Below, one piece after another: positions 12,855-33,121 of a stretch of 33,434 nucleotides of DNA. This stretch comes from Polyangiaceae bacterium (GTDB lineage Bacteria; Myxococcota_A; Polyangia; Polyangiales; Polyangiaceae). The notes below the pieces were generated by a model. The model was not told where the DNA came from and ran no database searches. It saw only the letters and a program-made list of their open reading frames with translations. Where the stretch lies: positions 1 to 33,434 of the forward strand of contig JABFRG010001241.1 of assembly GCA_013141295.1 (NCBI GenBank). The letters are read 5' to 3'. The first letter of the stretch is position 1, and every line of letters starts with the position of its first letter. Made by a program: the position numbers and the translations under genes.

Positions 12855-12911
12855 GTTCGGACTCCAGCGTCGATCGCGTGTTCGGTTCCGGCCGCGGACG
12901 TTCCGCGAAGC

Positions 12912-13295
12912 CTAGTCAGCAGCTCGCCGCACCTTGGTGGTCGCCTTGCGCGCCCTCCCCGCCTCGACGGGCCGAATCAGTGCGTCGTCCACGTGATAGA
13001 TCGCGGCGAACCCCTTCACCGGCACCGGTTCGACGCCGCGAGGTTCACGGACGTGCCACCGGTAGTCGCCTTCGGAGCCGGTGATCTTCCACAGTTCCAC
13101 GACGCAGATGGTCGCACCATAGGCGAGGTCCGCGGGGTCGAGGTGCTGGTCGCGACAGTCATCGTCATAGCGACCGGCGCTCGCGACGATGAGCAAGTCG
13201 CCGCGGTAGTTCACCTTCCACGTTCGGTACTCGATCTTCTTCTTGCCCGTGGCGATGAGCGTCGCCCAGGGTTGGCGTACAGAGATTGCCTTCAT
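12912..13295 (-). CDS. ASCH-domain protein, 127 aa
   Basis: MKAISVRQPWATLIATGKKKIEYRTWKVNYRGDLLIVASAGRYD...YGATICVVELWKITGSEGDYRWHVREPRGVEPVPVKG: classic ASCH pattern (sIrqPWa.li..G.K.iE.R.W...yRG.lli.As). Confidence 0.85.
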   Translation of the reverse strand: MKAISVRQPWATLIATGKKKIEYRTWKVNYRGDLLIVASAGRYDDDCRDQHLDPADLAYGATICVVELWKITGSEGDYRWHVREPRGVEPVPVKGFAAIYHVDDALIRPVEAGRARKATTKVRRAAD

Positions 13296-15502: not shown

Positions 15503-16827
15503 AACTCCACCGAGGTGACGGGGTATCCCTTGTCATCATCGGGCTCGGCTTCGTACTCGATGGGCGTCTTGCCCTCGGCAGCGCGTGTCTCCACGATGGT
15601 GGGGTCGAGGTCCGCGACCACGCGGAGCGCCGGTAGATCGGCCTCGGGGTTCTCGGCGATGGTGTCGAATAGGTTCACCAGGCTGCGCAGGAACTGGCGC
15701 GGGACAATCTTCACGTCGCCACCAAACCCCTTGGTCACCTCTGCTACGCGTCGGGAGATAACTTCTTGAGTCACGCGCTGCGCGACGATGTTCGGATCGG
15801 CCATGGGATAAAGATCGCGAAGGCGCATGCCGACGTCCTTCAGGCGATCGCCGTCGAAGGGCTTGAGCTCGAGCTGAGGCTGGCGAAGCGACACGAAGCC
15901 ACCTTCCTCGTGGAAGCGGATGCGATCGTGGAGCGGCTGAAGGCCCTTCACCCCGCGCGGCGTGTCGAAGAAGTCGGGCGTTCCGGTGAAGACCCACAGA
16001 ACGCCCTTGAAGCTGTCGGCGTCGTCGAGAATCTGCCGAATGCCATTGAGAGACTTGCCGCGGACGTCGCTGCGCGAGCGAAGGATGGTCTCGACCTCGT
16101 CGATCACGATGACAAGCCCTTCGTAGCCGGCAGCCTTCACCACCTCGACGATGCCGCGCAGATAGGCCATGGCGTCTTTGCTGGTGATGTCGCCCTTGAT
16201 GCCCGCGGCCTTCTTCTCGGCGGCGCTGACGTTCTCGCTGCCGCCGAGCCACGACATGAGCGCACCGGCCTCCGACACCTTGCCCGCTTGCTTCAGCTTG
16301 AAGACGTGCCGAAGCACGCGGCCGAGGTCCTCCGGCGCCTTACCGCCTGTGAGCGTCGTGATGTCGTCCTGGATGCGCTTCTGCACGGTGCCGTCGAAGT
16401 CGGGCGCGTTCTCGTCGGCACCGCCAGCGATGAGCGCATCCTCCACCTTGGCGATCCAGCGATCGATGATGTCGCCGAGCGCGCCCCGGGGACAGGAGCT
16501 GGTGCTCAGCTCTTGCACGACCTTGCGGTACACGTGATCGAACCTGTGAAACTGTAGATCGTTCTCGGAGACGACCACGAAGCTGGTGGCGAAGTTTCGG
16601 GCCTGAGCGTCGAGCACTGCGAGGCGCGCCATGAACGTCTTGCCGCAGCCGTAGCCGCCGCGGAGGAACTTGAACACCCCCTCGTCGGCTTCGGCCAGGT
16701 CGAGAAGGCGCCCAATTTCGGCCCGCTGCTTCTCGACGCCCACAGCGAACGCTTCGAGCCCGCGCTCGGGGACCACGCCCGACCGCAGGCGTTCGAAGAT
16801 GTGTTTGCGATCGCGTTGGCTAGTCAT
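15499..16827 (-). CDS. brxD: BREX ATP-binding protein BrxD
   Basis: MTSQRDRKHIFERLRSGVVPERGLEAFAVGVEKQRAEIGRLLDLAEADEGVFKFLRGGYGCGKTFMARL (Walker A), LVIVIDEVETIL (Walker B), GVLWVFTGTPDFFDTPRGV; start overlaps the pglZ stop by 8 nt. Confidence 0.9.
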   Translation of the reverse strand: MTSQRDRKHIFERLRSGVVPERGLEAFAVGVEKQRAEIGRLLDLAEADEGVFKFLRGGYGCGKTFMARLAVLDAQARNFATSFVVVSENDLQFHRFDHVYRKVVQELSTSSCPRGALGDIIDRWIAKVEDALIAGGADENAPDFDGTVQKRIQDDITTLTGGKAPEDLGRVLRHVFKLKQAGKVSEAGALMSWLGGSENVSAAEKKAAGIKGDITSKDAMAYLRGIVEVVKAAGYEGLVIVIDEVETILRSRSDVRGKSLNGIRQILDDADSFKGVLWVFTGTPDFFDTPRGVKGLQPLHDRIRFHEEGGFVSLRQPQLELKPFDGDRLKDVGMRLRDLYPMADPNIVAQRVTQEVISRRVAEVTKGFGGDVKIVPRQFLRSLVNLFDTIAENPEADLPALRVVADLDPTIVETRAAEGKTPIEYEAEPDDDKGYPVTSVEF

Positions 16828-19684
16828 CGGCTACCTCTCGAACATAACGTTTGCCGCCGTCGGCGGTCTCGATGCGTACCCGGAATGGCAACTTCGGAAG
16901 GTGAGTCTCCAGCTCCAGCGAGAACTTGCGGAAGGCGCGCGGTGAACCGAGCAGCTTCGCGGCCTCGGCCTCGGTGATGGATCCGTGCTTCTCGATGTGC
17001 AGGAACATCTTTCGCGCGCCCTCGTCGGCGATGGCTCCGGCCCAGCCCTCGGACCGCGGCGCTCGCTCTTCCTCCGGCGGCGGCGGGATGGTCGAGGCCT
17101 TGGCCGTCTTGGGGGGAAGCGCGGTGGTGCCCAACACCGAGTACCACTGCTCGGGCACCGCGCTCTGCACCCGCTCTACGCTGTCGGGGTGGAATATCTC
17201 CACGCGCGCGAGATCGTCGGTCGGCCCCTCGAGGCCGAAGAACACCTCCGTCCACGCCTCGGTGACGGGTAGCTGAATGCGACCGGTTCGAAGCTCGCCG
17301 GGAGTGGTGACGTGCTTGAAGACGACGCGAATGTCGTCGCGTCCTGCCACCCGCAGGCTGATGTCGACCTTCCGCGGGGCCGCAAATCCCAGGCTGGTGG
17401 TCGTTTGCTTGGCAAAGCACAGGCGAACCTTGAGCCGGTGCGAGCCGAGCACGTCGTCCTGCGTCTGCACCTCCACGGCGTACTCCGAGTAGCCGCCCTG
17501 CTCGGCGCGCTTGCGGGTCACCGTGAGCACCGGAATCACGCGCTCTTGCGGACTGTTGCCGCCGTGCGCGAAGGTGGCACCGGCGTTGCCACTGGCGAAC
17601 ATCGCGGTATCGGTGCGAAACAGCAGGAATCCGGCGACGCCATCGTATCCCAGCGACGACACCGAGACGTTCACCATGCCGTCCTCGGCCCGCGGGTGCG
17701 CGTCGAGAATGTGGCGACGGCTGCGGCCGGCCTTGTCATCGTAGGGCTGTATCTTCGTGGTCTCGTCTTGGAGCAAGAATCCGTGATCGGCGGTGAACAC
17801 GAAGTTCTTTACCCCGGCGAGCTGCAGGTGGTGCCAGGCGGCCTTGATCTGCCGTAGCGTCGATTCGAAGGTGGGCAGCCCCACGTTGGCTTCGCCGGCA
17901 TCGTCGATCTCCTTGGAATGAACCACGATGAGCGCGTGCGCACGCACCTGCGAGGTCAGCTTTTCGGTGGTGGCGTCGCATACGTCGACGAGTCGCAGCG
18001 AAAGGGCGCGCTTGCCCACGCTGCGCATGCCCATGGCGCGCGCACGGTCGTCTGGCTCTCGTACGGTGTACTCGCCGGTTTTGAAGCCGCCGAAGGCCCC
18101 GGCGACGGCGAGGCGCTCGCCCTTGGCCACCGGCGCGAGCACGTTCATCCCCACAGAAGTGATGCTCGGAAGCTCCGCCAACCGCGGCTTCAGGTCGACA
18201 ACGGTGCCCGCGCCACTCAGCTCCTCCACGAGCTCGGTGGCCATCTCGTAGCGGAAGGCATCGATGAGGAATACAGCGACCTTCTCGCCCTTCTCTGTTC
18301 CTTGCGTGAGCGGGTGAACCACCTGCTCGAACAGATTCCGCTGTCGCAGCTCGGGACTGGGCAGGAAGCCGCCGTCCGTGCACAGCGTCGCGAAGTCGGC
18401 GCACAGAGCGTCGGCCCAGTCGCGATGCGCCTGCCGCAGCTCGGTGACCAGTTCGCGGAGCGACGAGTATTCGGGGAGCGTCGACGTAAGCAGCGCGAGG
18501 CGCCGTTGCTCGAAGCGGCGATGCGCGCGGTCCACCTCGAAGGCTCCGGCGGCGTAGCGTTCCGCGGCGTCGTCTACGCTGCGCGCGCCCGCGAGGGGCC
18601 GCGGATGGCGCGCGAGAGCGGCCCCGAGCTCCGCAGCTTCCTCCACCAGCGTCCACGACCAGCGACGCTCGCGATCGCGCTGAATCCAGAAGGATCTGTC
18701 GCCGGCGCGCGCCGCACACCACTCCTTGGCTTTGGCCCACTGCTGGCTGCGCAGCGCCTCCACCGCGCCGCGAAGGACGCGAACCTCCTCTTCCTTGAAG
18801 GTGTCAATCTGACCCAGGTCCTCGGGCGTCATCGCGGCCAGCTCGGTCTTGAAGAACTCCTCGACCTCGTTGGCGATGCGCTCGTAGGCGTCGGCGTTGT
18901 CACGACGAATGCGCGCCGCCAGATCGCAGCAGGCCTTCACCAGGGGCGCCGAGAGGGACTTCAGCGGCAAGAGGTTGGGGTCGTGCGGCGGCCGCCGCAG
19001 ATCATGCACGTACTCCACCGCCAGAATCCACGCGCCGAGCTGGTGCAAGAGCCCGTCGAACGTCGACCTCTGGGCGGAGGGGTAGTAGCGCGTCCACGCC
19101 TCGTCCATGCCCGTGAGCCGATGCACGTAGGCCAGGAGCGGGCCGAGGCTGTCGGCCTTGGTGAGATGAGACGAGGTCGGATTCGCCAGAGCCTCGGCGA
19201 GATCGATGGGGCGAAAGTTGGATTCGCTCACCGCGGCGCCCGCGACTGCCTCGGAGAGCCAGGTATCGGCGGCTTCGAGGCTGGGGCCGGTGGCCACGAA
19301 GGCGTCAACCTCGGCCGGCGCCACCCGGGCGGTGGCTGTCTCGCGAATCAAGCTATCGAGGCCCTTTCGGTAGCGGACCCCTGCCTCGTACAGCTCGAGG
19401 AGCGGCGTCGCACGGATCGAAAGCTCGGTGAAGCCCGGCATGTGGACGAGCAGCGGCTGGTTGTCGAGGCCGTTGCCAAACTCCTCGAGCTTGAACAGGA
19501 GGTCGAGAAAGCTGCCGCGGAAGCCGAGCACCGGGAAGGGAAACGCGCCCTGTGCGTGCTTTGCAGCGAGGTCGTCTGCGAACTGCGTGTAGGACGCATC
19601 CTTGTCGAGCCACACCACGATGCCTTTGCGCCGTAGCTCGCCGAGAACTTCCTGCTCCATCGCCGCCGATACGGGTCCGTTCAT
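16820..19684 (-). CDS. pglZ: BREX alkaline-phosphatase-like protein PglZ (954 aa; alternative ATG about 24 nt downstream)
   Basis: VAVFLIDAFRYEMATELVEEL, LIVVHSKEIDDAGE, AGVKNFVFTADHGFLLQDE, VSVSSLGYDGVAGFLLFRTD: PglZ-type phosphatase motifs in BREX context. Confidence 0.9.
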   Translation of the reverse strand: MNGPVSAAMEQEVLGELRRKGIVVWLDKDASYTQFADDLAAKHAQGAFPFPVLGFRGSFLDLLFKLEEFGNGLDNQPLLVHMPGFTELSIRATPLLELYEAGVRYRKGLDSLIRETATARVAPAEVDAFVATGPSLEAADTWLSEAVAGAAVSESNFRPIDLAEALANPTSSHLTKADSLGPLLAYVHRLTGMDEAWTRYYPSAQRSTFDGLLHQLGAWILAVEYVHDLRRPPHDPNLLPLKSLSAPLVKACCDLAARIRRDNADAYERIANEVEEFFKTELAAMTPEDLGQIDTFKEEEVRVLRGAVEALRSQQWAKAKEWCAARAGDRSFWIQRDRERRWSWTLVEEAAELGAALARHPRPLAGARSVDDAAERYAAGAFEVDRAHRRFEQRRLALLTSTLPEYSSLRELVTELRQAHRDWADALCADFATLCTDGGFLPSPELRQRNLFEQVVHPLTQGTEKGEKVAVFLIDAFRYEMATELVEELSGAGTVVDLKPRLAELPSITSVGMNVLAPVAKGERLAVAGAFGGFKTGEYTVREPDDRARAMGMRSVGKRALSLRLVDVCDATTEKLTSQVRAHALIVVHSKEIDDAGEANVGLPTFESTLRQIKAAWHHLQLAGVKNFVFTADHGFLLQDETTKIQPYDDKAGRSRRHILDAHPRAEDGMVNVSVSSLGYDGVAGFLLFRTDTAMFASGNAGATFAHGGNSPQERVIPVLTVTRKRAEQGGYSEYAVEVQTQDDVLGSHRLKVRLCFAKQTTTSLGFAAPRKVDISLRVAGRDDIRVVFKHVTTPGELRTGRIQLPVTEAWTEVFFGLEGPTDDLARVEIFHPDSVERVQSAVPEQWYSVLGTTALPPKTAKASTIPPPPEEERAPRSEGWAGAIADEGARKMFLHIEKHGSITEAEAAKLLGSPRAFRKFSLELETHLPKLPFRVRIETADGGKRYVREVADD

Positions 19685-19736: not shown

Positions 19737-19925
19737 TCACGCTACCTTGATCTCCGGCGGAATCGGAGACGGCTCGGGAATTGCCTGGCATGCGCAGTCT
19801 CCTCCGCACGTGGGTGTGCACCCACCACCGGAAGTTGGCGGCATGGTTTCGACCCAAGTGCCGCAATTTCGGGCAGTTCGAACCATCCGGAATTTCCGGA
19901 TGGTTGCCCCAGGGTCAGGCGTCAT
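19737..19925 (-). CDS. Possible small ORF (62 aa) overlapping the pglX2 stop; weak
   Basis: MTPDPGATIRKFRMVRTARNCGTWVETMPPTSGGGCTPTCGGDCACQAIPEPSPIPPEIKVA; ATG overlaps the last codons of pglX2 and the frame runs through the perfect inverted repeat. No homology known to me. Confidence 0.2.
   Translation of the reverse strand: MTPDPGATIRKFRMVRTARNCGTWVETMPPTSGGGCTPTCGGDCACQAIPEPSPIPPEIKVA
19881..19905. repeat. 25-bp perfect inverted repeat AACCATCCGGAA-T-TTCCGGATGGTT just past the pglX2 stop
   Basis: 12-bp arms 19881-19892 and 19894-19905 around one T; outer bases allow an interrupted GGGCA/TGCCC extension when read on the minus strand. Confidence 0.9.
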
Positions 19926-22900
19926 CGCTCTCCTCCTCCTGGCCTAGGAGCGGTCCTTCGCCTTCATCGGCTTCGTCGGCCTTGGCGCTCTTCCTGGCGC
20001 GGCGCTTAGCTTCCTTGGCGACAAGCTCGGCGGCCGCGGTGGCGTGGTCCGCGAGGAACTTGGCGCGGGCGGCGTCAGGGCCAGGCTCGTCGATGGTGAA
20101 GTCCTGGCGAATCTCGTCTTGCAGGCGAAGCTCCCAGGCGTACGCCTTGGCCGGGTGCAGCTCCCAGAAGCACTTGTGGGCCACGGCGAGGGACGGATCC
20201 TCGTGGCACTTCTTCTTCACGCGGGTCGGGAAATAGCGGGCCGCCAGGTGGGACCAGTCGTAGTCCTTCTTGCCCTGCGCGTTGGCCAGCTCCTTCCACC
20301 ACTTCTTCGGCTCCTTCCACTGCGGCTCGAGGAGCGGCCACAGCGCGGCGCTGTTGACCATCACGCCGTCGTCGAGGTCCATGGTGTAGCGGGCGTCGAC
20401 CTCGCGCTTCGTGGTCTTGTCGTCCGCCGGCGGCGGTCCCCTCTCGGCGATTTCCGTCACCTTGGCGATGAAGTCGTTGAGCTCTTCGAGGAGCTTCTGC
20501 ACTTCCGTGAATCGCTTCTCGGTCGCACCCTTGCCGCGACCTTCGCGGCGCGCATCTCGTAGGTCAACCAGCTCGCCCTCTAGCACACGGCGCTCCGGGC
20601 CCAGGTGCTCCGCGACGAGAACCGAGAGAGTCTCCGGTTCGAAGCGATGTACGCAGACGTAGGCGACGTAGGTTCGCTTTGACGAAGAAAGCGGAAGGTA
20701 TATCGGACGGCCCTCATACATTGCACGGTGCTGAGCGAAGAAGAATTTGCGCAGATACGAGGAGAGGTCGGCGCCTGGGGAGATCCTCTCGCCAAGATCC
20801 GTCCACGCCTGCCGCAGGGGAGTGCACGTCTCGTGACCGAGCGTCTGAGAAGCGGGACTCAACAGGAGAATCCCATCAGGAACATGCGACTCCTGGTGAG
20901 TTGCAAACCCGCCGCGGCTCGAGAGGCGTCCGAGGCAAACGCCAAGGCACTGCGAAATGGTGTGCCATAGCTCGGGTTCGTCTTCACCGAGCAGAATTTC
21001 TGGTAAGGGCTCGCCCTCGGCACGGTCCACCGCCGTCTGCGCCCAACGTTTTGCGCCAGACCACGATGACCGCCCAACGAAACGATAGTCCACAGAGAGT
21101 TCGTTCCCCCACTCGTGTTGACTGAATGAGGCCCGGAGCGTCGAGAGGATTGTGTCTGTACCCGCAACGGGAGCAAACGGAAGGCGCCTAACGTCGCCAA
21201 GCTGAAAGTTGATGGTTGGATTCAGAGCTGAAGCAAGCTCGCGAACGACCGTCCTATTCAGTGCGCAAACGAGCTCCTCTGCGCTGGCGCGAAGGGGGAA
21301 CACCGAGGCACCAGAGACGTCGCGAACGCAGCGCACACCATGCATCCGGGTTCCAAACCTGTTGCCGATCGTGGTGTACGCAACCCCGAGGTCGGGATCC
21401 CGCTGGGGACGAACGTTCGGCAACAGAACGCGTAGCTCCAGGGAAGCCTGCTCTGCACGCAGTAGCCATCGGTAGGGCTCAATCCACTCACGACCCTCGG
21501 CCCCCTTGATGTACGGCAACAACCCTGCGTCTCGATCGCCCGTTGCGGCGCGGCTCGCAACCTCAGGAGAAACTTCCCAAACGGCGCGAAGGAATCTGTC
21601 GTTGTTGGTCGTCGCTATGCCCCCCTCACACCGAGCAACTTCGCCAATTTTCTGCAGCTCGGCGTAGCGCTCCATGAACTCACGTTCAAGCCAAAACAAG
21701 ATCGGCGCGCCTTGGATGCGCGAGAACACGGCACCGTCGAAGGGAACATAGTTAGACGACTCCGCAAGCGCCCTCGCGATGTCGACCGTCTGGTGTGAGG
21801 TAATGGCGTCCCTGCTTCCAACACGAGCGGCCAACGACATACCGCCTTGGGTCGCGGTCGGAGATGCGACGACCATCGCCGACTGAATCAACTTCGACGC
21901 TCGGCGAAACGCCCCCTTTCCGACGTCGGCGAGGAGCAGAATCTGTCCGCGGAGAAGACGTTCTCTCGTATCCTGAAAGGAGCTCAGGAACATCCAGTTC
22001 GATAGGGCTACGAACGCGATCAACCCATCGGGCTTGCACAGCTCGATCGAGCGCTGCACGAAAGCGGCAAAAAGGTCAGTATTGTCGCCGAACGCTTCCG
22101 CAAGCACCTCAGCAGGTAGCTCAATCTTCGCCGTTGCGAGATAGGGCGGGTTGAAAGCGACGACATCGTACCGCCCCTCGACGAGCAGCGCGCGCAAACG
22201 GACGCCTGCGGCGAGCTGCGCTCCGTCAAATCGTACGCCTAGGTCATTCGCGCGCGTACGAGACGCGAGGAATCGTTCGAGGCTGGAAGCGGGTTCGGAG
22301 AGCAACGCCGGTTGAGCCGCACGGTCGGAGTTGAACCGCATGAGACTCCCGCGGACCCCGACGTGCCGAAGTTCCGCCACCGCATCGGCGAGCTCGGGCC
22401 CATCGGAGGGGAACGCATCCGCGAGCGCGCTAAGGGCTGGGTCACCATCCTTCAGGCCATCTAGGTCAAATTCCGTCGCCACCAAATTCATTGGGGGAAT
22501 ACGGCCATTGGGAGCAAGCCGACGCGCCTTCAAGTAGAGCACCGCCGCGGTGATCTGGACTGCGCGACTGTCGATGTCCACCCCGTGAAGGTTGTGCCGG
22601 AGAATCGCGTCCACGATCGCGCCGTTGCATACTTCTACGCCCCTGTCTCGAGCCTCCTCTCGGTAGAGCGGAACCAGAAGGTCAAAGGCACCAGCGAGAA
22701 AGTGGCCGCTGCCGCAGGCGGGGTCTAGCAACCTCAGGTCGGCGAGCGATGCTGGCAGGCTTTCCGCGGAGGCAGTCACCGCATCAGCAACGAACATCGG
22801 CCACCCGCTGGGCGGTTGCGCTGGCGATCGCGTATCCGACGTAGAACGCGCGCGTCTCATGGCGAGGGCCATGCGTCCGAGGCTGTTCTGGAGCAACCAC

Positions 22901-23625
22901 TCCACCATGTATTGTTCGGTGAACAGCTGTGTTTTTGACGCGATTTCGTGCGGCTCGACCCTACCCCTCGGGCCAACACGCTCGTCGATCGCCTCCCGAC
23001 GAGGATCGTTCCAGAACTGGTAAACCCACCCAAGGCTCGTGTCGTCGTGCCAAACGCTGTCGAGCTCTGGGGCATTCAAGATTCCGATCACCTGGCGCAG
23101 GGCCGCAGCCGAGAGCAGGAAGTAGCGCTCGAGGGGCGTCTCCCCATACAAGCCAGGTAGGTCGATGGCGAGCTCCGCAAAGACAAGGGAGAGGAGGAAG
23201 TCGAGCCCTTCGTAGTCGTCTCGCCCGTGTACGCCGGCGAGAGTCGGTGCGTGCTCTCGGAACTCGAGATAGCCCCGGCTCGTCCACCCACCAGAGAGTA
23301 CCGGAGGGCGCGAGATGCCGCACGCCTCTAGCTGTCGCAAGAGAAACAGGCGTAAGAGCGCGGTGGACGCGATCTCCGATTCGGCTGAGCAGCTTGCCGA
23401 CTGGGTCTGTTGGCCACGTCCGCGGGCTCGAGCTCGTTCGGCGCCCCACGCTTCGAAGCGCAAGCGCAGCACCAAGTCCCGGTGCTCAAGCCCGGCATGG
23501 TCTGCCGCCACCGACAGGCGAAACCTCCGCTCCAGCTGCTGATGCAGGTCTGCTTCCAGAATTGTGCGAAGGCATCGCACGCTGGTCGACAGCGCCTCCA
23601 TCGCCTCTACTGCCATCTCAGGCAT
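19915..23625 (-). CDS. pglX: BREX adenine-specific DNA methyltransferase PglX, second copy (start could be 23664, 23625 or 23616)
   Basis: Motif I LLDPACGSGHFLAGAF, motif IV YDVVAFNPPYLATAK, BREX PglX N-terminal GGWTSRGYLEFREHAPTL...TSLGWVYQFWNDPRREAID...EPHEIASKTQLFTEQYMVEWLLQNSLG, C-terminal YTMDLDDGVMVNSAALWPLLEPQWKEPKKWWKELANAQGKKDYDWSHLAARYFP. Confidence 0.9.
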   Translation of the reverse strand: MPEMAVEAMEALSTSVRCLRTILEADLHQQLERRFRLSVAADHAGLEHRDLVLRLRFEAWGAERARARGRGQQTQSASCSAESEIASTALLRLFLLRQLEACGISRPPVLSGGWTSRGYLEFREHAPTLAGVHGRDDYEGLDFLLSLVFAELAIDLPGLYGETPLERYFLLSAAALRQVIGILNAPELDSVWHDDTSLGWVYQFWNDPRREAIDERVGPRGRVEPHEIASKTQLFTEQYMVEWLLQNSLGRMALAMRRARSTSDTRSPAQPPSGWPMFVADAVTASAESLPASLADLRLLDPACGSGHFLAGAFDLLVPLYREEARDRGVEVCNGAIVDAILRHNLHGVDIDSRAVQITAAVLYLKARRLAPNGRIPPMNLVATEFDLDGLKDGDPALSALADAFPSDGPELADAVAELRHVGVRGSLMRFNSDRAAQPALLSEPASSLERFLASRTRANDLGVRFDGAQLAAGVRLRALLVEGRYDVVAFNPPYLATAKIELPAEVLAEAFGDNTDLFAAFVQRSIELCKPDGLIAFVALSNWMFLSSFQDTRERLLRGQILLLADVGKGAFRRASKLIQSAMVVASPTATQGGMSLAARVGSRDAITSHQTVDIARALAESSNYVPFDGAVFSRIQGAPILFWLEREFMERYAELQKIGEVARCEGGIATTNNDRFLRAVWEVSPEVASRAATGDRDAGLLPYIKGAEGREWIEPYRWLLRAEQASLELRVLLPNVRPQRDPDLGVAYTTIGNRFGTRMHGVRCVRDVSGASVFPLRASAEELVCALNRTVVRELASALNPTINFQLGDVRRLPFAPVAGTDTILSTLRASFSQHEWGNELSVDYRFVGRSSWSGAKRWAQTAVDRAEGEPLPEILLGEDEPELWHTISQCLGVCLGRLSSRGGFATHQESHVPDGILLLSPASQTLGHETCTPLRQAWTDLGERISPGADLSSYLRKFFFAQHRAMYEGRPIYLPLSSSKRTYVAYVCVHRFEPETLSVLVAEHLGPERRVLEGELVDLRDARREGRGKGATEKRFTEVQKLLEELNDFIAKVTEIAERGPPPADDKTTKREVDARYTMDLDDGVMVNSAALWPLLEPQWKEPKKWWKELANAQGKKDYDWSHLAARYFPTRVKKKCHEDPSLAVAHKCFWELHPAKAYAWELRLQDEIRQDFTIDEPGPDAARAKFLADHATAAAELVAKEAKRRARKSAKADEADEGEGPLLGQEEESDDA
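20042..20521 (-). repeat. ~480-nt direct repeat, copy A (3' end of pglX copy 2); partner 23751-24230
   Basis: Sequence colinear at a constant 3709-nt offset with no indels seen and high nucleotide identity by eye. Confidence 0.85.
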
Positions 23626-26600
23626 CCGCATCCTGCCATTGTTCTTGGCTCTCGGACTCTTCAAACGCTATGTCTGCCTGCTCAGGCGCTGGCGTATTCT
23701 TCTTTGCGCGCCTCTTCGCCTCCTTGGCGTCAATCTCCGCGGCCTCCGCGGCGTGGTCGGCGAGGAACTTGGCACGCGCGGCGTCCGAGCCTGGCTCGTC
23801 GATGGTGAAGTCCGGGCGAATCTCGTCCTGGAGCCGGAGCTCCCAGGCGTAAGCCTTGGCCGGGTGCAGCTCCCAGAAGCACTTGTGGGACACGGCAAGC
23901 GACGGGTCCTCGTGGCACTTCTTCTTCACGCGAGACGGGAAATAGCGGGCCGCGAGGTGGGACCAGTCGTAGTCCTTCTTGCCTTGCGCATTGGCCAACT
24001 CCTTCCACCACTTCTTCGGATCCTTCCACTGCGGCTCGAGGAGTGGCCAGAGCGCTCCGCTATTGACCATTACGCCGTCGTCGAGGTCCATGGTGTATCG
24101 AGCGTCGACCTCGCGCTTCGTGGTCTTGTCATCGACCGGCGACGGCCCCTTTTCGGCGATCTGCGTGACCTTCGCGATAAAGTCGTTGAGCTCTTCGAGG
24201 AGCTTCTGCACTTCCGTGAAGCGCTTCTCGGCCTTGCCCTTGTTCGTGCCCGAAGCCCGCGCCGCGCGGAGATCGTCCAGCTCGCCGTCGAGGCGACGCT
24301 TGGTTGGGACGAGGTGATCGGCGAGAAGATCGCTGAGAGTCGTGTCGGTCCACCGATGGATGGAAACGAAGGCTACGAAGCTCCGCTTGGCGGAGGAGAG
24401 CGGAAAGTAGATGGGCCGGTTTTCGTAGACCTTCTTGTGGTAGTCGAAGAAGGACTTGCGAAGATAGGTGGAGAGGTCGTCACCGTTGCCTACTGCTGCG
24501 CCGTGCTGAGCCCACGCTTCAGAGAGAGACTCTCCGATTGCGCGTTCTTCGAGAGAGACGAATAGTGTTCCTTCAGAGATTGATGGCTGACCGCCAGCAG
24601 GCGTAAAACGCCCAAGGGCAACCCCGATCGAGAATGAAACTATGGCCTCGGGCAAGCTCGGCTCGGGGAGTTGCCGAAAGGGTGACGGCTCACCCTGCCC
24701 CTCGTGGTCCACCGCGGCTTGTGCCCAACTCTGAACGCTCGCCCAGCTCGAGGGGCCGGGTTCACTGAACTCTGTGGAAGTCTCGCGATGAGATTCGTGA
24801 ATACCAAACATTTCCTCGACGCACGCAAAAATTGCCTCGGCATGAGGCACCTCGAACATGGGCAACCTGTTGACGTCGCCCACTTGAAAATGGACGGTGG
24901 GATTCAAGGACTCGAGGACATACTTGGCCCGACTAGAATTCATCAAACAGACCGTTTCGGCGGGATTCGGGGGATACAAAGATGCTGCCATTCCATCGAT
25001 CACGGCCCGCCAGCGGTGTGCGCGGCCAGAGAAGGACGCCCCGATCATTGAGAAGCCAACACCGTATCCAAAATATACTCGCTCGTTGCGAATCTGCCGC
25101 GAGTAGCTGCCATACAGATGTGCGGCCAGAACCTTGATTTGCAATCCGTTGCCGTACCAAACACAGACGTCGTCGCATGGGTCAATCCAGCAAATCCCCG
25201 CACTCCCCTTCATATACCTCGTCCAGGTGGTCTCGAGACTGGCCCGATACGGCACATTTGTTCGCGTGCTTAGGCAGGAGGCCCGGGCCACCTCCCAGTG
25301 TTTGCGAAGGAATCGGGCGTTGTTCCCGCTGTTCAGTCCGAACCGCGCCGGGCTCGTCTCTCCGAGCTTGGGAACGGCCGCGTACTGCGAGAGGAGACTC
25401 GGGCTCCACCAATACACAATGGGCTCACCTCCGATCACTTCGAAGCCACGCGGGTCGAAGTCGTGTCGCCCCAACTGAGCCAACAGCGCACCTCGCTTGC
25501 GCTTCGTGCGCTCGCGATCGTAGGACTTGTCGTCTAGCGGCGTTGGTTGCATCGCAACGCTCGGCACGCCGGGGTGCGGGGCGCGGCGGAACACCGGAGC
25601 GGCGACCGCGAGGACCTCGTTCGGCACATCGTCGAAGGCGCCGCGGTCGAAGTCCCCGATGGATCGCAAGTCGTTCTCCCTGAGCAGTCCCTTCCGCAGC
25701 TCCGCGAACTGGCCCAGGAACATCCAGCCGCGCATGGTGAGGAGCGCCGAGATTCCGCCACTTCGTGCGAGCTGCAGACCGCGCTCGAGAAACGCCGCGT
25801 ACAAGTCGGCCTTGCCCCGCGGATAGGTCGCAGCGACATATCCGAACGCATTCGTCTTGCTGGTGCCCTGATAGGGCGGGTTCCCCACGACCACGTCGTA
25901 CGTGCCTTCCTTGGCGATGCGCACGAGGCGCACCCCAGCGGCGAGCTGCTCGCCATCCAGCCGCAAGCCGAGGTCTTCGGACTTCGAGCACTTGCTCAGG
26001 AACTCTTCGAGCTTGTCGACGATGGTCGCCTTGGCCTGCTCGGCGGAGATCTTCACCTTCTTCTTCGGGAAGCCACCGAACAGGTCGCCCTGCCCGCGGG
26101 TGCGCTCGAACTCTAGCTCCACGTGCTTGATGGCATCCTCGACTGCGGCGTCCACCTTCAAGAGCGAGCCCAAGTAGTCGACCCCCGCGAGCGCGGTGAG
26201 CAGCTTGGTGGTCAGGTCCTCGGGAATTCCGGCCTGTTCCTTCAGCTCCCGGCGGAGCTGCACCACGGCCGCATCGTCTGCAGGCAAATTGCCGAGCTGC
26301 AGCACTGGCGCCACCAGGTTCAGGCGCTTGGGGTGCGCGCCCTTCGCGAGCGACTTGGCTTTGAGGTACAGCCCCGCAGCGGCGATCTGAATCGCGCGAG
26401 GGTCGATGTCGATGCCGAAGAGGTTGTTCTCCAGAATCGACTCGGCAATTTCCTTGTCGGTGATCGTCGTGCCATTGTGGCGGGCTTCTTCGCGGTACAG
26501 CGCGGCGAGCAGGCCGAAAGCGATGACCAAGAAGTGCCCACTCCCGCAGGCTGGGTCGAGGAGCTTGATGGCGTGAACGGACTCCGGCGCCTTCTCCACG

Positions 26601-27604
26601 GCGTCATCGGGAATCGGCTGCGGCACGTAGTACTTCCAGTGCTCCTCCAGCTCACCCTCGATGGGCATCAGCGCATCGAGGGCGACCTCGCCGGCCTCGC
26701 GTTTGGCGCGCCACTCCGCGCGCCGCGCATCGAGGGGACCGAGAACCCGGTCGCCGTCCGGGGTCCATCCGTGCTTCTTGCACATCGCCAGCCAGGTGAG
26801 GCCGAGGCTGTTCTGCAGTAGCCACTCCACCATGTATCGCTCGGTGAACATCTGCGTCTTCGACGCAATCTCGTGCGGCTCAATCTTGCCGCCGCCGTTG
26901 ATCTTGGCGTCGAGGGCTTCGCGGTCGGGATCGTTCCAGTACTGGTATACCCAGCCGAGCGTGGTGTCGTCGGTCCACGCCGAAGCGAGCGCCGGCTCGT
27001 CGAGCCGCTCGATCACTTCGCGGAGCGTGGCCGCGGGCACCGGGAACAGCCGCGCGAGGCCGACATCGCCGAAGAGCCCCGGCAGGTCCAGCGCCAGCTC
27101 ATCGAAGACGAGCTGTAGCAGCGTGGCATAGCCCTCGGTGGCGTCGGTGGTGCCGTTGATGCACAGGGTCGGCGCGAACTCGCGAAACTCGCGGTAGCCG
27201 CGGCTGCTCCAGCCACCGGTGACGACCAGCGGCTTGGAGAGGCCGAGCGCCTCTAGATGTCGCAGGAGCACCAGGCGGTTGATGAGCGTGGCCGCCGCCT
27301 CCTTCTCAGCTTGGGCGAATAGGCGCTCCGCCGTAACCTTGTGCTCCGCCTTATTCTTGGGCTTCGTGGCGCGCGCCCGCTCGTCGACCCATGCTTCGAT
27401 GCGCTCGCGCCGCTTCTTGTGCGTCTCGTCGAGGCCCGCCTGCCCAATGGGTACCGAGAGCCGGTAGCGACGGTCGGCCTCGTCGTGGATCGCCCGCAAA
27501 AGGCGACCCCGTAGGCCCTTCTCCGGGTCTTGTTGGGTGCCGCGAATGGTTTCGGCGAGCAGCTTCTTGGCGTTCGGTGCAAGCATTCCAGTGCAACGTG
27601 ACAA
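23618..27604 (-). CDS. pglX: BREX adenine-specific DNA methyltransferase PglX, first copy (TTG start at 27604 or ATG at 27586)
   Basis: Motif I KLLDPACGSGHFLVIAFGLL, motif IV YDVVVGNPPYQGTSKTN, PglX N-terminal TLGWVYQYWNDPDREALDAKINGGGKIEPHEIASKTQMFTERYMVEWLLQNSLG, HWKYYVPQP. Confidence 0.93.
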   Translation of the reverse strand: MSRCTGMLAPNAKKLLAETIRGTQQDPEKGLRGRLLRAIHDEADRRYRLSVPIGQAGLDETHKKRRERIEAWVDERARATKPKNKAEHKVTAERLFAQAEKEAAATLINRLVLLRHLEALGLSKPLVVTGGWSSRGYREFREFAPTLCINGTTDATEGYATLLQLVFDELALDLPGLFGDVGLARLFPVPAATLREVIERLDEPALASAWTDDTTLGWVYQYWNDPDREALDAKINGGGKIEPHEIASKTQMFTERYMVEWLLQNSLGLTWLAMCKKHGWTPDGDRVLGPLDARRAEWRAKREAGEVALDALMPIEGELEEHWKYYVPQPIPDDAVEKAPESVHAIKLLDPACGSGHFLVIAFGLLAALYREEARHNGTTITDKEIAESILENNLFGIDIDPRAIQIAAAGLYLKAKSLAKGAHPKRLNLVAPVLQLGNLPADDAAVVQLRRELKEQAGIPEDLTTKLLTALAGVDYLGSLLKVDAAVEDAIKHVELEFERTRGQGDLFGGFPKKKVKISAEQAKATIVDKLEEFLSKCSKSEDLGLRLDGEQLAAGVRLVRIAKEGTYDVVVGNPPYQGTSKTNAFGYVAATYPRGKADLYAAFLERGLQLARSGGISALLTMRGWMFLGQFAELRKGLLRENDLRSIGDFDRGAFDDVPNEVLAVAAPVFRRAPHPGVPSVAMQPTPLDDKSYDRERTKRKRGALLAQLGRHDFDPRGFEVIGGEPIVYWWSPSLLSQYAAVPKLGETSPARFGLNSGNNARFLRKHWEVARASCLSTRTNVPYRASLETTWTRYMKGSAGICWIDPCDDVCVWYGNGLQIKVLAAHLYGSYSRQIRNERVYFGYGVGFSMIGASFSGRAHRWRAVIDGMAASLYPPNPAETVCLMNSSRAKYVLESLNPTVHFQVGDVNRLPMFEVPHAEAIFACVEEMFGIHESHRETSTEFSEPGPSSWASVQSWAQAAVDHEGQGEPSPFRQLPEPSLPEAIVSFSIGVALGRFTPAGGQPSISEGTLFVSLEERAIGESLSEAWAQHGAAVGNGDDLSTYLRKSFFDYHKKVYENRPIYFPLSSAKRSFVAFVSIHRWTDTTLSDLLADHLVPTKRRLDGELDDLRAARASGTNKGKAEKRFTEVQKLLEELNDFIAKVTQIAEKGPSPVDDKTTKREVDARYTMDLDDGVMVNSGALWPLLEPQWKDPKKWWKELANAQGKKDYDWSHLAARYFPSRVKKKCHEDPSLAVSHKCFWELHPAKAYAWELRLQDEIRPDFTIDEPGSDAARAKFLADHAAEAAEIDAKEAKRRAKKNTPAPEQADIAFEESESQEQWQDADA
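23751..24230 (-). repeat. ~480-nt direct repeat, copy B (3' end of pglX copy 1); partner 20042-20521
   Basis: See copy A. Confidence 0.85.
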
Positions 27605-27613
27605 CGGGTTAGA

Positions 27614-28003
27614 TTAGAGAGCGACATCCAAAACAATGGAGACAATAGCTCCATTTTCGATTCGACAAGAGCCGGGGATGGCAACGTGCTCCGCTGCTGA
27701 ATGATGACGCTGCGCAGCAAACGTGAAGAGTTTGCTGCCGGACGGAGCGGTGAACGACATCTCCCCTGATTGGTTCGCGTACGCCCCCAGCAAAAACGGC
27801 TCTGTGACCCCGCCGTTGCGCCAAGAGATCCCAATCTCCGTCGACCAGGTTTTATTGCTCGCAAGAGCCAGCTGGAGCGCAGGGATGTGACGTGCGACGA
27901 CGTTGGCGTCGCTTCGAGGAAACCAAATTCGATACTGGGCGTCGCCCTTGTTTGTATTCTGTCGACGACTGTACATCTGAATCGGTACGGTTACTACGCT
28001 CAT
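27614..28003 (-). CDS. Hypothetical 129-aa protein encoded between brxC and pglX; candidate BREX accessory
   Basis: MSVVTVPIQMYSRRQNTNKGDAQYRIWFPRSDANVVARHIPALQLALASNKTWSTEIGISWRNGG...IENGAIVSIVLDVAL; strong Shine-Dalgarno (GGGAGGAATCC-ATG), same strand and in line with flanking BREX genes. No family recognised. Confidence 0.75.
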   Translation of the reverse strand: MSVVTVPIQMYSRRQNTNKGDAQYRIWFPRSDANVVARHIPALQLALASNKTWSTEIGISWRNGGVTEPFLLGAYANQSGEMSFTAPSGSKLFTFAAQRHHSAAEHVAIPGSCRIENGAIVSIVLDVAL

Positions 28004-28047
28004 GGATTCCTCCCAAATTCCTGTGGCCGATGCTCAGCCGCTAGGTC

Positions 28048-31000
28048 TCAAACAATCCTCACGCGGGCGCCCTTGTCGAGGAGCGGGCCGATGCGGTCTT
28101 CCAGCTCTTTGAACACGGCCTGGAGCTGCTCGCGGCTCGCCACTTCGCGGCCGCGCAGGTGGGTGTCGACCTTGATGATCTGGCCGTCGGTCTTCTTGCT
28201 CAGCTCCTCGTCGAGGCGATCGTTGGACTGCTCTTCGGCCTGGTGAACGCGGCTGGCGAATCGGTCGCGTACCTCGACGAGCGTGGGCGAAACGGCCTCG
28301 GCGGTGGTGTCGACCAGAATCTCGGCGACCGGCCGCAGGACGCGGTGCGCCTGGTCGGCGTCGAGATGCGCGAACCCGGGCCGCGTCTTCACGCGGGCGC
28401 GAATGGCCTCCGCCTCGGCGTTCTGCTTGTTGAGAATCGCGCGACGTTCCTCGACGTACCGCGCGCGAATGCGCTCGATGGCCGGGGCGAGCGGGCCGAC
28501 ATCCCGCCAGGGGCGTTCGGCTGCCATATGGCTCGTGAGGGCCGCAGCGTCCTCCTCGATGCCGCCGAGCGCTTGCAACTGATGGAGCTGCGATAGCTGG
28601 ACATCGCACGTTGCCGCCGCTTGTTGCGCCGTCTCGATGGCGCTGTCGGTCAGCTCGCCGGCGAACATGCCGAGCTGCTGCAAGCCATCGCGCAAGACGT
28701 CGAGGCTGCGCTTCACCTCGACCACCGTCTTTTGCACCTGGCGGGAGCGACAGCACTCTTCGAGTGCCTTCGCGAGCTTCTGGAGCGCGGCGGGAAGCGG
28801 CGGGCGGCCGGGCAGCTTGTCGAAGCGACGCTCCACGTCGCGAAGGCGGTCGCGCTGCTGGGGAAAGACCTGGAAGGTTGCGTCGGCGATGGGCTCGTCG
28901 TCGGGCTCGGGATCGAGCTGCAGGTAGGTTTGAAACAACTTGCGAATGGCGATGCGGTCGCGCGCGCTCACCTCGCCCTCGGTGGCGGGGAAGAGCTCGG
29001 CGCGGCGAAAATCACGATCGCGAATGAAGAGGTCGCGAACGCCAGGATCCTGGTGCGACGTGATGTCGTCCCCGTGCTCCGGTCGAATGCGAATCTTCTT
29101 TCCGCGCAAGAGGCCCGCGCAGCAGGCCTTCACCAGGTCGGGCGCGTAGCCATACGGAGGGCTGACGAACGTGCCCACCAGGGTCTGGCCGGAGAGTCCG
29201 CCGTTCTGCTCGATTTCCTGGGCAATGCGCGTGGGGTACAGGCCCGCGCAAGAGGCCACGTACTTGCCGGCGTCGAGCGTGAGAATCCCGAGCCCGCCGT
29301 CCATGAACTTGGTGGAGGGGCCGGTGAGGTCCTTCTCCAGGAGCTGGTTCAGCTCGGCGGGCGAAATGGCAATTTCCGAGAAGTGCGGATACAGGTCAGG
29401 GAGCACGCGGGTTGCGACGGCGCTGAGCGCCGCAGCGAACGAGCTGCCCGCGTCGCGTGGTCGAATGTGCTGTCCGCGAAAGTAGACGGCGCCTTCGAGG
29501 AACGACTCGGCGACTGCGTTGCGCACCCGTGCGTCGAGCTCGTCGAACCGTGTCTCCTCTTCGACGAGCAATCGCTGCTTCTCGCGCGTGAGCGACTCGC
29601 GCCGCGGGCGGTAGCGCTCCAGCATACGGTCGGAACGCGCCACCTGGCGTGCGTGTTCTTCAATGGCCGCCGACTCCCCCACGAGCCAGAGCAAGCGGTT
29701 CCGAAGCTGATCTTGATCGCTCTTCGGCACCCATGCGCTGGAAAGGCGGTCCTCTTTGCGGCCGAGAAAGCGGAAGTCGACGGCCACCGTGGAGTCTTCT
29801 CGCGCGTCCTGAAGTTTCACGTCGTGTGCCTGACGGCCGTCGGAGAACCAGAGCGTCCACGGGAAGGTGCGACCTTTCCAGCGAGGTCGCTCTTGCATGG
29901 CCCCCACCAGCGCCTTGATGGCCTGCTGCGTGATCTCGCTGATCTGCTCCTGCGTGACGCCAATGTCGTCGCGCTCCCGCTGCCATTCCTGGCCGGCGGA
30001 GCTTTGAATCTTGAATCCGTGTTTCTCGGAGTACGAGAGCAGGCTGGCTGTTCGCAGCTTCTCGAGCGCCTCCGTTACTGCCTGCACGCGGTTGCCTTCG
30101 CCGAGCCGCGAATACAAGCATGCAGCCACCAGCGGCGGCATGGTGGGTGTCTGCTCCTGAATGAGCTCGAGGAGCGCCACCGCCTTGGCAACACGCTGTG
30201 CGAGAACGTCGTCGCGCACCAAGGGATCGTTGAAGATGCGCGCGAGCGTGGTCTGCACGTCGGCGTCGAGTGCGGAGTGCTGCACCTCATAGATGGCGTC
30301 GATGGTCACGAGCGAGCCCACCTCGCCGTCGGCCAGCTTCTGCTCGCGAAACAGCTCGCCCAGGAGCTGAAGGAGGCCGCGAATGGCGTGGTCATCGCCC
30401 TGAATGCGCGTCGATCGGGTGCGAAGGTTGGATGTAACCTGCATGAGAAGGTCGATGTGCCCGGGTAGCATCGGATACACTTCGGCGAAGTCTTCTTCGG
30501 TAATCTCCTCGCAGGCGTAGCCGTAGAGCTTGAGATCGCCGCGATGCTTGGCGAAGACCTCGCGGAGCTGGCTCTCCATGGCCGGCTTCTTTTTGAGCAG
30601 GCGCTTGTGGACGACGTCGCGAATGTTCGTCGTGCCGAGGTGCACGCGGAGGTTGGTGGGAAAGCGGTCCTTCAGCTTGCCGAGGTTGTTGTTCTCGGCC
30701 TGGTCTTCCAGCTTCTGCTGACCGGTGGCGAAGAGCCACACGCGGCCCTTCAGCCGCTGGCCCAGCTCCGACACGAACGATTGCAGCTTGAGCATGCGGC
30801 TCTCGTCCTGGTGAACATACTGGCTCACCTCGTCCACGACGATGAACAGCGCCTTGCCGTCGGCACGGATGTTGACCATCGCGTCGATGGACTCCACCAC
30901 CTCACGCACGCTGGTGCCGGCTCCCGTGCGAGCGCCGGCGCGACTGTCGATCCAGCTCGTGGGCTCGGGGTAGCGGTCGGGCTTCATCACGTGCAGCACG

Positions 31001-31683
31001 TGCGAGAAGTGGTCGTCGGCCTGCTCTTCTTCCTTGGCGAGCTTCCAGTCCTTCCCGAGCGCCTTCTTTGCGGTGGCGACGAAGGCTTCCCACTCCCCGT
31101 CTCGCTCGAGCTTGAGCTCGAAGTCGGCCACCAGGTTGCTCTTGGAGCAGTACCCGAGCCGCGCTTGCACCAAGCGGACGATGGCCGAGTGAATGTGCTC
31201 GTTGTCGCGGGCGACGCCGCCGATGTCGAATACCACCGCGATGGGGTTCAAGCGCTTGGCGAGGGCATCCCATGCGTCCACCAGCTCTTGCCGTCGTGGC
31301 GAATCGTCGCGGTTGAGCAGTGCCGTCGAGAGCAGCGTGCCGTCGGGCAGCTTCACGCCGTCGAGCGACAGACCCAAGAGCTTGGCAAAGCTCGACTTAC
31401 CGGAGCCGAAGAAGCCGGAGATCCAGGAGGCCGGCAGCTCGGGACCGTTCTTCTTTTGCAGCTCGGCATGTACGTTCCGCAGCAGATGCACGAACTGCTC
31501 GTGAATACCCGACTTCACGCGGCGCCCGCGCGGATCGCCGTCAGGGTACCCACCGGTGATGATGTACTCACCGACCTCGGCCTGGAGCTTCTCCGGCGAC
31601 TGCTCGTGGAAGTAGACGACCGGCGGAATGTCCCGGGTGACGTCGGCGACGAACAGATCTCGAATCTTCATGGGTGGGCTCAC
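28048..31683 (-). CDS. brxC: BREX ATPase BrxC (PglY-related), 1211 aa
   Basis: MKIRDLFVADVTRDIPPVVYFHEQSPEKLQAEVGEYIITGGYP...SWISGFFGSGKSSFAKLLGLSL (Walker A), LFIVVDEVSQYVHQDESRMLKLQSFVSELGQRLKGRVWLFATGQQKLED; GTGA overlap with brxB. Confidence 0.95.
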   Translation of the reverse strand: MSPPMKIRDLFVADVTRDIPPVVYFHEQSPEKLQAEVGEYIITGGYPDGDPRGRRVKSGIHEQFVHLLRNVHAELQKKNGPELPASWISGFFGSGKSSFAKLLGLSLDGVKLPDGTLLSTALLNRDDSPRRQELVDAWDALAKRLNPIAVVFDIGGVARDNEHIHSAIVRLVQARLGYCSKSNLVADFELKLERDGEWEAFVATAKKALGKDWKLAKEEEQADDHFSHVLHVMKPDRYPEPTSWIDSRAGARTGAGTSVREVVESIDAMVNIRADGKALFIVVDEVSQYVHQDESRMLKLQSFVSELGQRLKGRVWLFATGQQKLEDQAENNNLGKLKDRFPTNLRVHLGTTNIRDVVHKRLLKKKPAMESQLREVFAKHRGDLKLYGYACEEITEEDFAEVYPMLPGHIDLLMQVTSNLRTRSTRIQGDDHAIRGLLQLLGELFREQKLADGEVGSLVTIDAIYEVQHSALDADVQTTLARIFNDPLVRDDVLAQRVAKAVALLELIQEQTPTMPPLVAACLYSRLGEGNRVQAVTEALEKLRTASLLSYSEKHGFKIQSSAGQEWQRERDDIGVTQEQISEITQQAIKALVGAMQERPRWKGRTFPWTLWFSDGRQAHDVKLQDAREDSTVAVDFRFLGRKEDRLSSAWVPKSDQDQLRNRLLWLVGESAAIEEHARQVARSDRMLERYRPRRESLTREKQRLLVEEETRFDELDARVRNAVAESFLEGAVYFRGQHIRPRDAGSSFAAALSAVATRVLPDLYPHFSEIAISPAELNQLLEKDLTGPSTKFMDGGLGILTLDAGKYVASCAGLYPTRIAQEIEQNGGLSGQTLVGTFVSPPYGYAPDLVKACCAGLLRGKKIRIRPEHGDDITSHQDPGVRDLFIRDRDFRRAELFPATEGEVSARDRIAIRKLFQTYLQLDPEPDDEPIADATFQVFPQQRDRLRDVERRFDKLPGRPPLPAALQKLAKALEECCRSRQVQKTVVEVKRSLDVLRDGLQQLGMFAGELTDSAIETAQQAAATCDVQLSQLHQLQALGGIEEDAAALTSHMAAERPWRDVGPLAPAIERIRARYVEERRAILNKQNAEAEAIRARVKTRPGFAHLDADQAHRVLRPVAEILVDTTAEAVSPTLVEVRDRFASRVHQAEEQSNDRLDEELSKKTDGQIIKVDTHLRGREVASREQLQAVFKELEDRIGPLLDKGARVRIV

Positions 31684-32318
31684 GGATAGATGCGGGGGCG
31701 GTAGTCGCGGTCGGCGTCGAGCTCGCCCATGAACGACAGGGCAGTCGTGTCTTTGCGCTCGCCGGGGTACAGGAGCACGACCGGGATGTTGCGGGTCTTG
31801 CCATCGATGTGCTTGAGCAACGCCGACGAGCGGAAGAACGGGTAGAGCGCGCCGGCGCGACCGATGAGCACGAGCGTGCGGTCGGCGCCGTCGGGATGCT
31901 TCTCGGCGAAGTCGGCGATGAGCGCCGCGACGTCGGCCGCGATGCCATCGGGCCCCTCGATGTGAGGCGCGATCTTGTCGCGCAGGTGCGCCAGAGCCCG
32001 CTCGGGATCTTTCTCGAAGAGTCGCTTTTCACGGGTGATGAGCGCCTGCACGTTGGCCTCTCCGGTCTTGCGAATACGTGCGAGAAGGAGTTGCTGCAGT
32101 GAGATGGGCAGGACGCCCCAGCCGGCGTTGCGCAGATCGTCGGTCAGCCGACGCATGAGGCCGCGGAGCTTGAACTCGTCGGCCGGTCGATAGGGAAGTA
32201 TCGCAAAGCGATAGTTGCGCATCGTGCTGATCTGCGGTCCGCCCTCGGCGAGCAGATCGCGACGCAGGGCCGCGACGCCCTCGTCGAGCGTCTGTTGCGT
32301 GAAGAGCGGCTCGGTCAT
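31680..32318 (-). CDS. brxB: BREX protein BrxB (DUF1788)
   Basis: RTLVLIGRAGALYPFFRSSALLKHIDGKTRNIPVVLLYPGERKDTTALSFMGELDADRDYRPRIYP: BrxB/DUF1788 C-terminal signature; ATG at 32318 overlaps the brxA stop (ATGA). Confidence 0.92.
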   Translation of the reverse strand: MTEPLFTQQTLDEGVAALRRDLLAEGGPQISTMRNYRFAILPYRPADEFKLRGLMRRLTDDLRNAGWGVLPISLQQLLLARIRKTGEANVQALITREKRLFEKDPERALAHLRDKIAPHIEGPDGIAADVAALIADFAEKHPDGADRTLVLIGRAGALYPFFRSSALLKHIDGKTRNIPVVLLYPGERKDTTALSFMGELDADRDYRPRIYP

Positions 32319-33121
32319 GACGGGCTCACCCCCGCGAGCTCGGCCCACGCCGAGAGCGAGGGCGCGTGCCACTCCACCTCCGTGAGCTGCGCCATGCGGC
32401 GGAACTGGATGTTGGGCAGCGCACGCAAACGCTGGTCGAGAAAGCCCTCGGTGAGACCCACGGATGCGAGGTACGCGTTCTCGGTGAGGGTGCCTGCGAA
32501 GCCGAGCCCGCGCAGGAGATAGAGCAGGTACTCCAGCGCCACGTCGGGCACCTTCGGCAGCAAGAGCGGCCGCGGATTGGGTTTGGCCGCGATGAGACCG
32601 GCTTCGGAGGCGGCGGAGATCAGCTTGCTTGCAAATTGCACGCAGGTAGCTTCGGCCCAGCGCTCGGGGAACTCCGTTTTTACCCAACGAAGGGCGACAT
32701 CACGGTCCACCTTCGGGCTCGGGAGGCCGCGACGCTGCACCAGAAACTCCCCGGTGAACCGGCGGTACAGCGGATCGGAGAGCTGGAGGTGCCAGTGACA
32801 GATGGCCTGCCGCGTGGAGGTCTCCATCCCGCGCCACCGGCGGAGCACCGCGAGCGACTCCGGATACACATCGTAGCGATCCGCGAAGTTCGCGAGCAGG
32901 AAGCGGGTGCGCTCGAGGCTCTTGCTGCCGAACCATCGCTTCTCGAAGGCAAGGAGCGCGCGGCTCGGCCCCGCCACCATCGGGTCCGCATGCTCCCAGT
33001 AGGAGCGCGAATCTTCGACGCCGAGCGCCAGGCGCAGAATCCGCGTGTGCACGGTGGTGGCCTCGGAAAGCCGCGGCGCGCGGGGGGCATCGGGCTGAGC
33101 GCTAAGGGCCACCGCGAGCAC
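32315..33121 (-). CDS. brxA: BREX protein BrxA (DUF1819-like)
   Basis: 268 aa, immediately upstream of brxB with ATGA overlap; ARFLLANFADRYDVYPESLAVLRRWRG-type region and C-terminal helical domain consistent with BrxA; position matches the BREX operon. Confidence 0.82.
   Translation of the reverse strand: MLAVALSAQPDAPRAPRLSEATTVHTRILRLALGVEDSRSYWEHADPMVAGPSRALLAFEKRWFGSKSLERTRFLLANFADRYDVYPESLAVLRRWRGMETSTRQAICHWHLQLSDPLYRRFTGEFLVQRRGLPSPKVDRDVALRWVKTEFPERWAEATCVQFASKLISAASEAGLIAAKPNPRPLLLPKVPDVALEYLLYLLRGLGFAGTLTENAYLASVGLTEGFLDQRLRALPNIQFRRMAQLTEVEWHAPSLSAWAELAGVSPS

Follow-up and report, generated by a model that had tools for sequence, protein, structure and literature searches.

A 129-aa orphan gene next to pglX in a type 6 BREX operon: a putative horizontally acquired accessory gene

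A 129-aa open reading frame (ORF) lies between brxC and pglX of a BREX operon from a Polyangiaceae bacterium, at a position where the core type 6 system has no gene. Is it a gene at all, and if so, is it a part of BREX or cargo carried by the operon? We addressed the question in the window, the whole 33,434-nt stretch of DNA analysed here, and in related BREX loci.

The BREX operon and its small ORF

The operon around the ORF belongs to type 6 BREX. The models NF033455, NF033443, NF033438 and NF033441 all scored above cut-off in it, and BrxA, BrxB, BrxC and BrxHI were found by PADLOC. The predicted gene order is brxA, brxB, brxC, pglX, a second pglX, pglZ, brxD and brxHI, with the following features:

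32315-33121, minus strand: brxA (PDLC02448, E=3.2e-110)
31680-32294, minus strand: brxB (PDLC02459, E=1.3e-93)
28048-31683, minus strand: brxC, the upstream neighbour (PADLOC PDLC02486, E=0; NCBIfam NF033441), N-terminal ATG at 31671
27587-28047, minus strand: brxC-pglX slot, 461 nt from the brxC stop codon to the likely pglX ATG, 55% G+C
28004-28016, minus strand: ribosome-binding site region of the 129-aa ORF, GGGAGGAATCC before the ATG by direct reading
27614-28003, minus strand: 129-aa orphan ORF, 14.0 kDa, pI 9.4, ATG start
23618-27586, minus strand: pglX, the downstream neighbour, BREX-6 methyltransferase and specificity protein (NF033455, 2015.6 bits against a cut-off of 900)
24727-25276, minus strand: low-G+C patch of pglX, aa about 770-953, in the variable middle part of PglX
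19915-23664, minus strand: second, tandem pglX in the pglX-pglZ slot (NF033455, 1312.5 bits), true start within the ORF
16820-19684, minus strand: pglZ, BREX-6 type (NF033443, 1075.7 bits)
15499-16827, minus strand: brxD (NF033438, PDLC02494)
13382-15502, minus strand: brxHI helicase (PDLC02501, E=2.5e-295)

The contig ends (position 33434) 313 bp upstream of brxA, and brxE, which stands first in a type 6 operon, would lie beyond that end if present. Among the surveyed loci, only L052 has a complete tandem pglX pair comparable to that of the window.

The original prediction described a complete ORF in the orientation of its neighbours with a strong GGAGG Shine-Dalgarno sequence, 44 nt after brxC and about 10 nt before pglX, in a stretch of reduced G+C. 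Most of this was confirmed exactly. The complete ORF is present at 27614-28003 on the minus strand, and its upstream coding-strand sequence, GGGAGGAATCCATG, carries GGAGG followed by 5 nt and the ATG; this ATG is 44 nt from the brxC stop codon (28050-28048), and a count of 27601-27660 returned the G+C of 25/60 obtained earlier by hand. The distance to pglX is the part that has to be revised. A TTG in the pglX frame does occur 9 nt past the stop codon of the ORF, but the gap is likely 27 nt, because ATG 27586 is where the homologous PglX proteins of related loci begin.

The ORF has a G+C content of 55.1% and ranks among the lowest-G+C 390-nt stretches of the window. In a scan of the whole window, only 0.3% of the 390-nt windows were that low, and all of them fall either on the ORF or on the pglX patch at 24727-25276. 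Judged by composition, this would be a point for foreign origin of the ORF, while the pglX patch is the probable target recognition region according to its place in the PglX sequence. No promoter-like site, terminator beyond chance, mobile-element flanking repeat or Rfam match was found at the ORF, which would be read on the BREX transcript from its own Shine-Dalgarno site, co-transcription being the likely arrangement.

Coding potential and search for relatives

A same-strand ORF of such length arose in 2.3% of Markov-simulated inserts of 461 nt, and homologs are lacking, both of which leave some room for a spurious ORF in non-coding inserted DNA. Against this stand the correctly spaced GGAGG and the in-frame codon score, which is the best of the six frames and exceeds that of random codons without stops at the same composition by z=2.7, with codon statistics trained on the window's genes only and slightly weakened by the second pglX having entered the training set in the wrong frame. 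The score is well below that of the neighbouring brx genes, as expected from a foreign composition. A contrast also came from single-sequence AlphaFold2 predictions: the 129-aa protein reached pLDDT 75.4 and pTM 0.62, with two of five models above 70, while the overlapping antisense ORF, the one sequence used as control, gave 41.5 and 0.21. This supports a real folded protein with a fairly confident beta-rich fold. We thus take the ORF as a real, predicted protein-coding gene and consider a spurious frame very improbable.

The model comprises seven strands and three short helices, and no known domain or transmembrane segment was found in the protein, which agrees with the small, soluble, beta-rich product anticipated from its composition. 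The product as modelled would be of that kind. An idea that it could be a DNA mimic was ruled out by the pI of 9.4.

Structure prediction with fold comparison and a survey of gene neighbourhoods had both been proposed as checks. The first yielded a folded beta-rich model, but no known fold matched it with an E at or below 0.001; the hits to GFP-type barrels (TM at most 0.37) and to a prohead protease (0.42) superposed with an rmsd above 10 A and are meaningless. The second found no homolog between brxC and pglX or elsewhere in about 80 related loci, including the closest, L005, whose BrxC is 79% identical. Searches of sequence collections gave the same picture. Within its own genome the protein matched only itself, and no homolog was present in 290 genomes of the same class, 378 of the phylum and 184 of the order (overlapping sets), nor in 40 genomes with related loci and 274 genomes of another class; the whole-genome searches total roughly 880 genomes from overlapping samples. 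The best match in the phylum was in L085 (E=1e-4); it coincides with part of a 742-aa kinase/repeat ORF of the opposite strand and was rejected. A tblastn search of plasmids and phages returned nothing better than E 0.03, and scans of viral and genome contigs with peptide patterns, which detect close relatives only because the patterns are exact peptides, gave no homolog. Pfam, PADLOC, PHROGs, NCBIfam and PDB sequences contained no family match, the best hit being a flavin reductase at E=0.04, far below cut-off. Since no homolog was found, evolutionary proof of selection and a family-level link to defence are absent for this gene.

Its orphan status and modest coding score are also what would be seen in a passenger without a phage role, that is, DNA imported with pglX or the decayed remnant of a larger insert kept by chance. 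The low G+C, resembling that of the imported-looking pglX patch, is in line with this, as are some slots in other loci in which, instead of defence genes, a transposase or repeats occur or no gene is evident. A remnant, however, would not usually keep its ORF intact, with a good start site and a compact fold in the prediction, and the compact spacing leaves no leftover DNA. We regard a passenger as a rather unlikely explanation.

Insert positions and occupants in related loci

With related brxC genes as bait, 80 loci were retrieved, along with three loci on plasmids and additional stretches of genome. The brxC-to-pglX distance, available for 69 complete junctions, was 59 nt or shorter in 31 of them and 375 nt or more in 30. 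When every operon junction was judged by a stricter rule, counting as inserts those of 350 nt or more, brxC-pglX (28/65) and pglX-pglZ (19/40) were frequently occupied, and the other four nearly never: brxA-brxB 1/76, brxB-brxC 1/81, pglZ-brxD 0/27 and brxD-brxHI 0/20, in total 2/204. The excess at brxC-pglX is highly significant (Fisher p=7.5e-18), and co-occupancy of the two pglX slots exceeds expectation (p=9e-4), though kinship among the loci makes them less than fully independent. Because loci were cut where contigs end and at 10 kb, the counts overlook very long inserts. Extra genes in type 6 loci are hence concentrated at the two junctions flanking pglX and nearly absent at the other four.

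The non-core position claimed for the 129-aa gene is borne out by these junctions. The gene is conserved at brxC-pglX in no other type 6 locus among about 80, and tight type 6 loci have no gene there, so BREX does not require it as a component. It does have the position of a BREX accessory, being non-core and located in the brxC-pglX slot.

A number of occupants of this slot in other loci could be assigned to families by family scans. Pairs of an ATPase and a DUF4276 protein (AAA_21+DUF4276) match HEC-01 in L005 and L058 and were recognised by Pfam domains in L046. A PDC-M07A-like ATPase was found in L124, PDC-S27 in L130, an AbiEii-like nucleotidyltransferase in L025, a Fic-like/AlbA_2 protein in L142 and a very long helicase-nuclease in L047; AAA_21 ATPases are among the occupants in L053 and L081. 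Further occupants, judged from translations by eye only, resemble PIN, GNAT/DUF1778, zeta-toxin, Uma2 and transposase proteins, and some appear toxin-antitoxin-like by inspection. Two loci each have one small orphan in the slot, L002 at 12631-13083 (150 aa) and L027 at 13630-13989 (119 aa). Neither has a Pfam match or detectable similarity to the 129-aa protein, which is therefore not the sole small orphan in the slot. Type 1 BREX uses the same two positions: a DUF262 gene occupies brxC-pglX in pEFER and pglX-pglZ in an Acinetobacter plasmid, and the PARIS pair is listed at pglX-pglZ in StySA (PMC9009780). In some loci of type 1, both slots are empty.

Two side observations concern these loci. 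In the closest relative, L005, the PglX frame (15380-17831) ends after 768 aa, some 60% of the full length, and represents either a broken gene or an assembly error. The weak PADLOC matches to SIR2/pAgo-associated models shown by the Fic-like/AlbA_2 protein of L142 are the same as those of a 645-aa protein encoded at 2090-4027 on the plus strand of the window.

The surroundings of the gene could also be read as those of a BREX-specific modulator, a small protein binding BrxC or PglX and tuning restriction or relieving self-toxicity in this lineage only. The gene is on the same strand as both neighbours, closely spaced, and has its own strong Shine-Dalgarno site; it adjoins the gene for the specificity subunit, and the two pglX genes of the locus might need balancing. 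Such a role is nevertheless unlikely in our judgement: none of the other type 6 loci examined has the gene, not even the closest, other loci with a junction of 0-60 nt do without any gene there, and the slot accepts many unrelated genes. Of the original prediction, an accessory gene remains plausible given the non-core slot position, whereas a specific regulator, anti-self-toxicity factor or phage-protein sensor is not supported: the gene does not recur, and its position is a variable slot.

Comparison with known accessories and proposed role

Our preferred reading is that the 129-aa ORF is probably a real, horizontally acquired gene, acting independently as accessory cargo of putative function in an exchange slot flanking pglX. 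Cargo is favoured because the genes that occupy the slot are unrelated and several are free-standing defence genes. The gene would have entered the brxC-pglX slot of the operon by horizontal transfer, and its product would most likely be a free-standing accessory and not a BREX subunit, probably serving in phage defence like BrxU, BxaP and PARIS. An independent defence accessory is preferred to a BREX regulator because BrxU and BxaP protect independently of BREX.

A positional precedent is BrxU, encoded at the brxC-pglX junction of the type 1 BREX locus on plasmid pEFER (PMC8565348), which acts independently of BREX (PMC12707154). Like the 129-aa gene, it is an extra gene exactly at this junction, on the same strand and tightly spaced. 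BrxU is a GmrSD-family type IV restriction enzyme with DUF262 and DUF1524 in a type 1 system, whereas the gene in the window is 129 aa, without family and in type 6; its product gave no Pfam match up to E=1, to DUF262 and DUF1524 or otherwise. The rare BxaP is located beside pglXI in type 3 BREX, between pglXI and brxHII, and protects alone (PMC10799925). It resembles the 129-aa gene in rarity, few relatives and placement beside a BREX methyltransferase gene, and differs in its BREX type, its exact junction and its own demonstrated protection. PARIS, an ATPase with a DUF4435 protein between pglX and pglZ in StySA (PMC9009780), is likewise an accessory beside pglX, but it is a two-gene ATPase-nuclease module in the other slot, while the gene here is single and small and has neither domain. 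The HEC-01-like pairs share both the slot and the BREX type; they are unrelated to the 129-aa protein and form inserts of about 1.7-2 kb compared with 461 nt. No PADLOC or Pfam match to an ATPase with TOPRIM, DUF4276 or DUF4435, as in PARIS and HEC-01, was present in the slot, which consists of the single 129-aa ORF. A BrxR-type regulator (WYL plus helix-turn-helix) had no Pfam match in the protein either, and the predicted fold is mainly beta.

For the 129-aa protein, binding or sensing is favoured over enzymatic activity solely for want of a recognised catalytic family. With its fold unmatched in the PDB, it might conceivably be the first member of an undescribed single-gene family of anti-phage or BREX-inhibition-sensing proteins carried as cargo of the exchange slot, a proposal we put forward tentatively.

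Accessory effectors within BREX loci, those of type 6 among them, were previously reported (PMC12839542), and the passages of that paper considered here describe no position-specific slot. Embedded extras are known, but the papers considered here treat them one at a time or as an enrichment of the neighbourhood in general. The position-specific slot is the more useful result, and the novelty is modest. The slot predicts where new BREX-linked defence genes should be sought, small orphans overlooked by family-based tools among them. The other AT-rich patch of the window falls within the most variable part of PglX, which suggests that specificity region and cargo arrived together; slot cargo would then be exchanged along with the pglX specificity region. 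If this is true, the pglX-flanking slot would allow joint exchange of target specificity and accessory defence genes among BREX loci, a pattern that the slot distribution also suggests and of which the 129-aa gene would be one example.

Further genes were noted on the minus strand downstream of the operon. Between brxHI and the next gene set lies a 127-aa gene (12912-13295) whose start looks ASCH-domain-like by eye and which has no PADLOC match. The set itself, just downstream of the BREX operon at 5838-12854, is a Zorya-like group of four genes with remote matches to ZorA, ZorB and ZorC and a strong match to a ZorD-type helicase.
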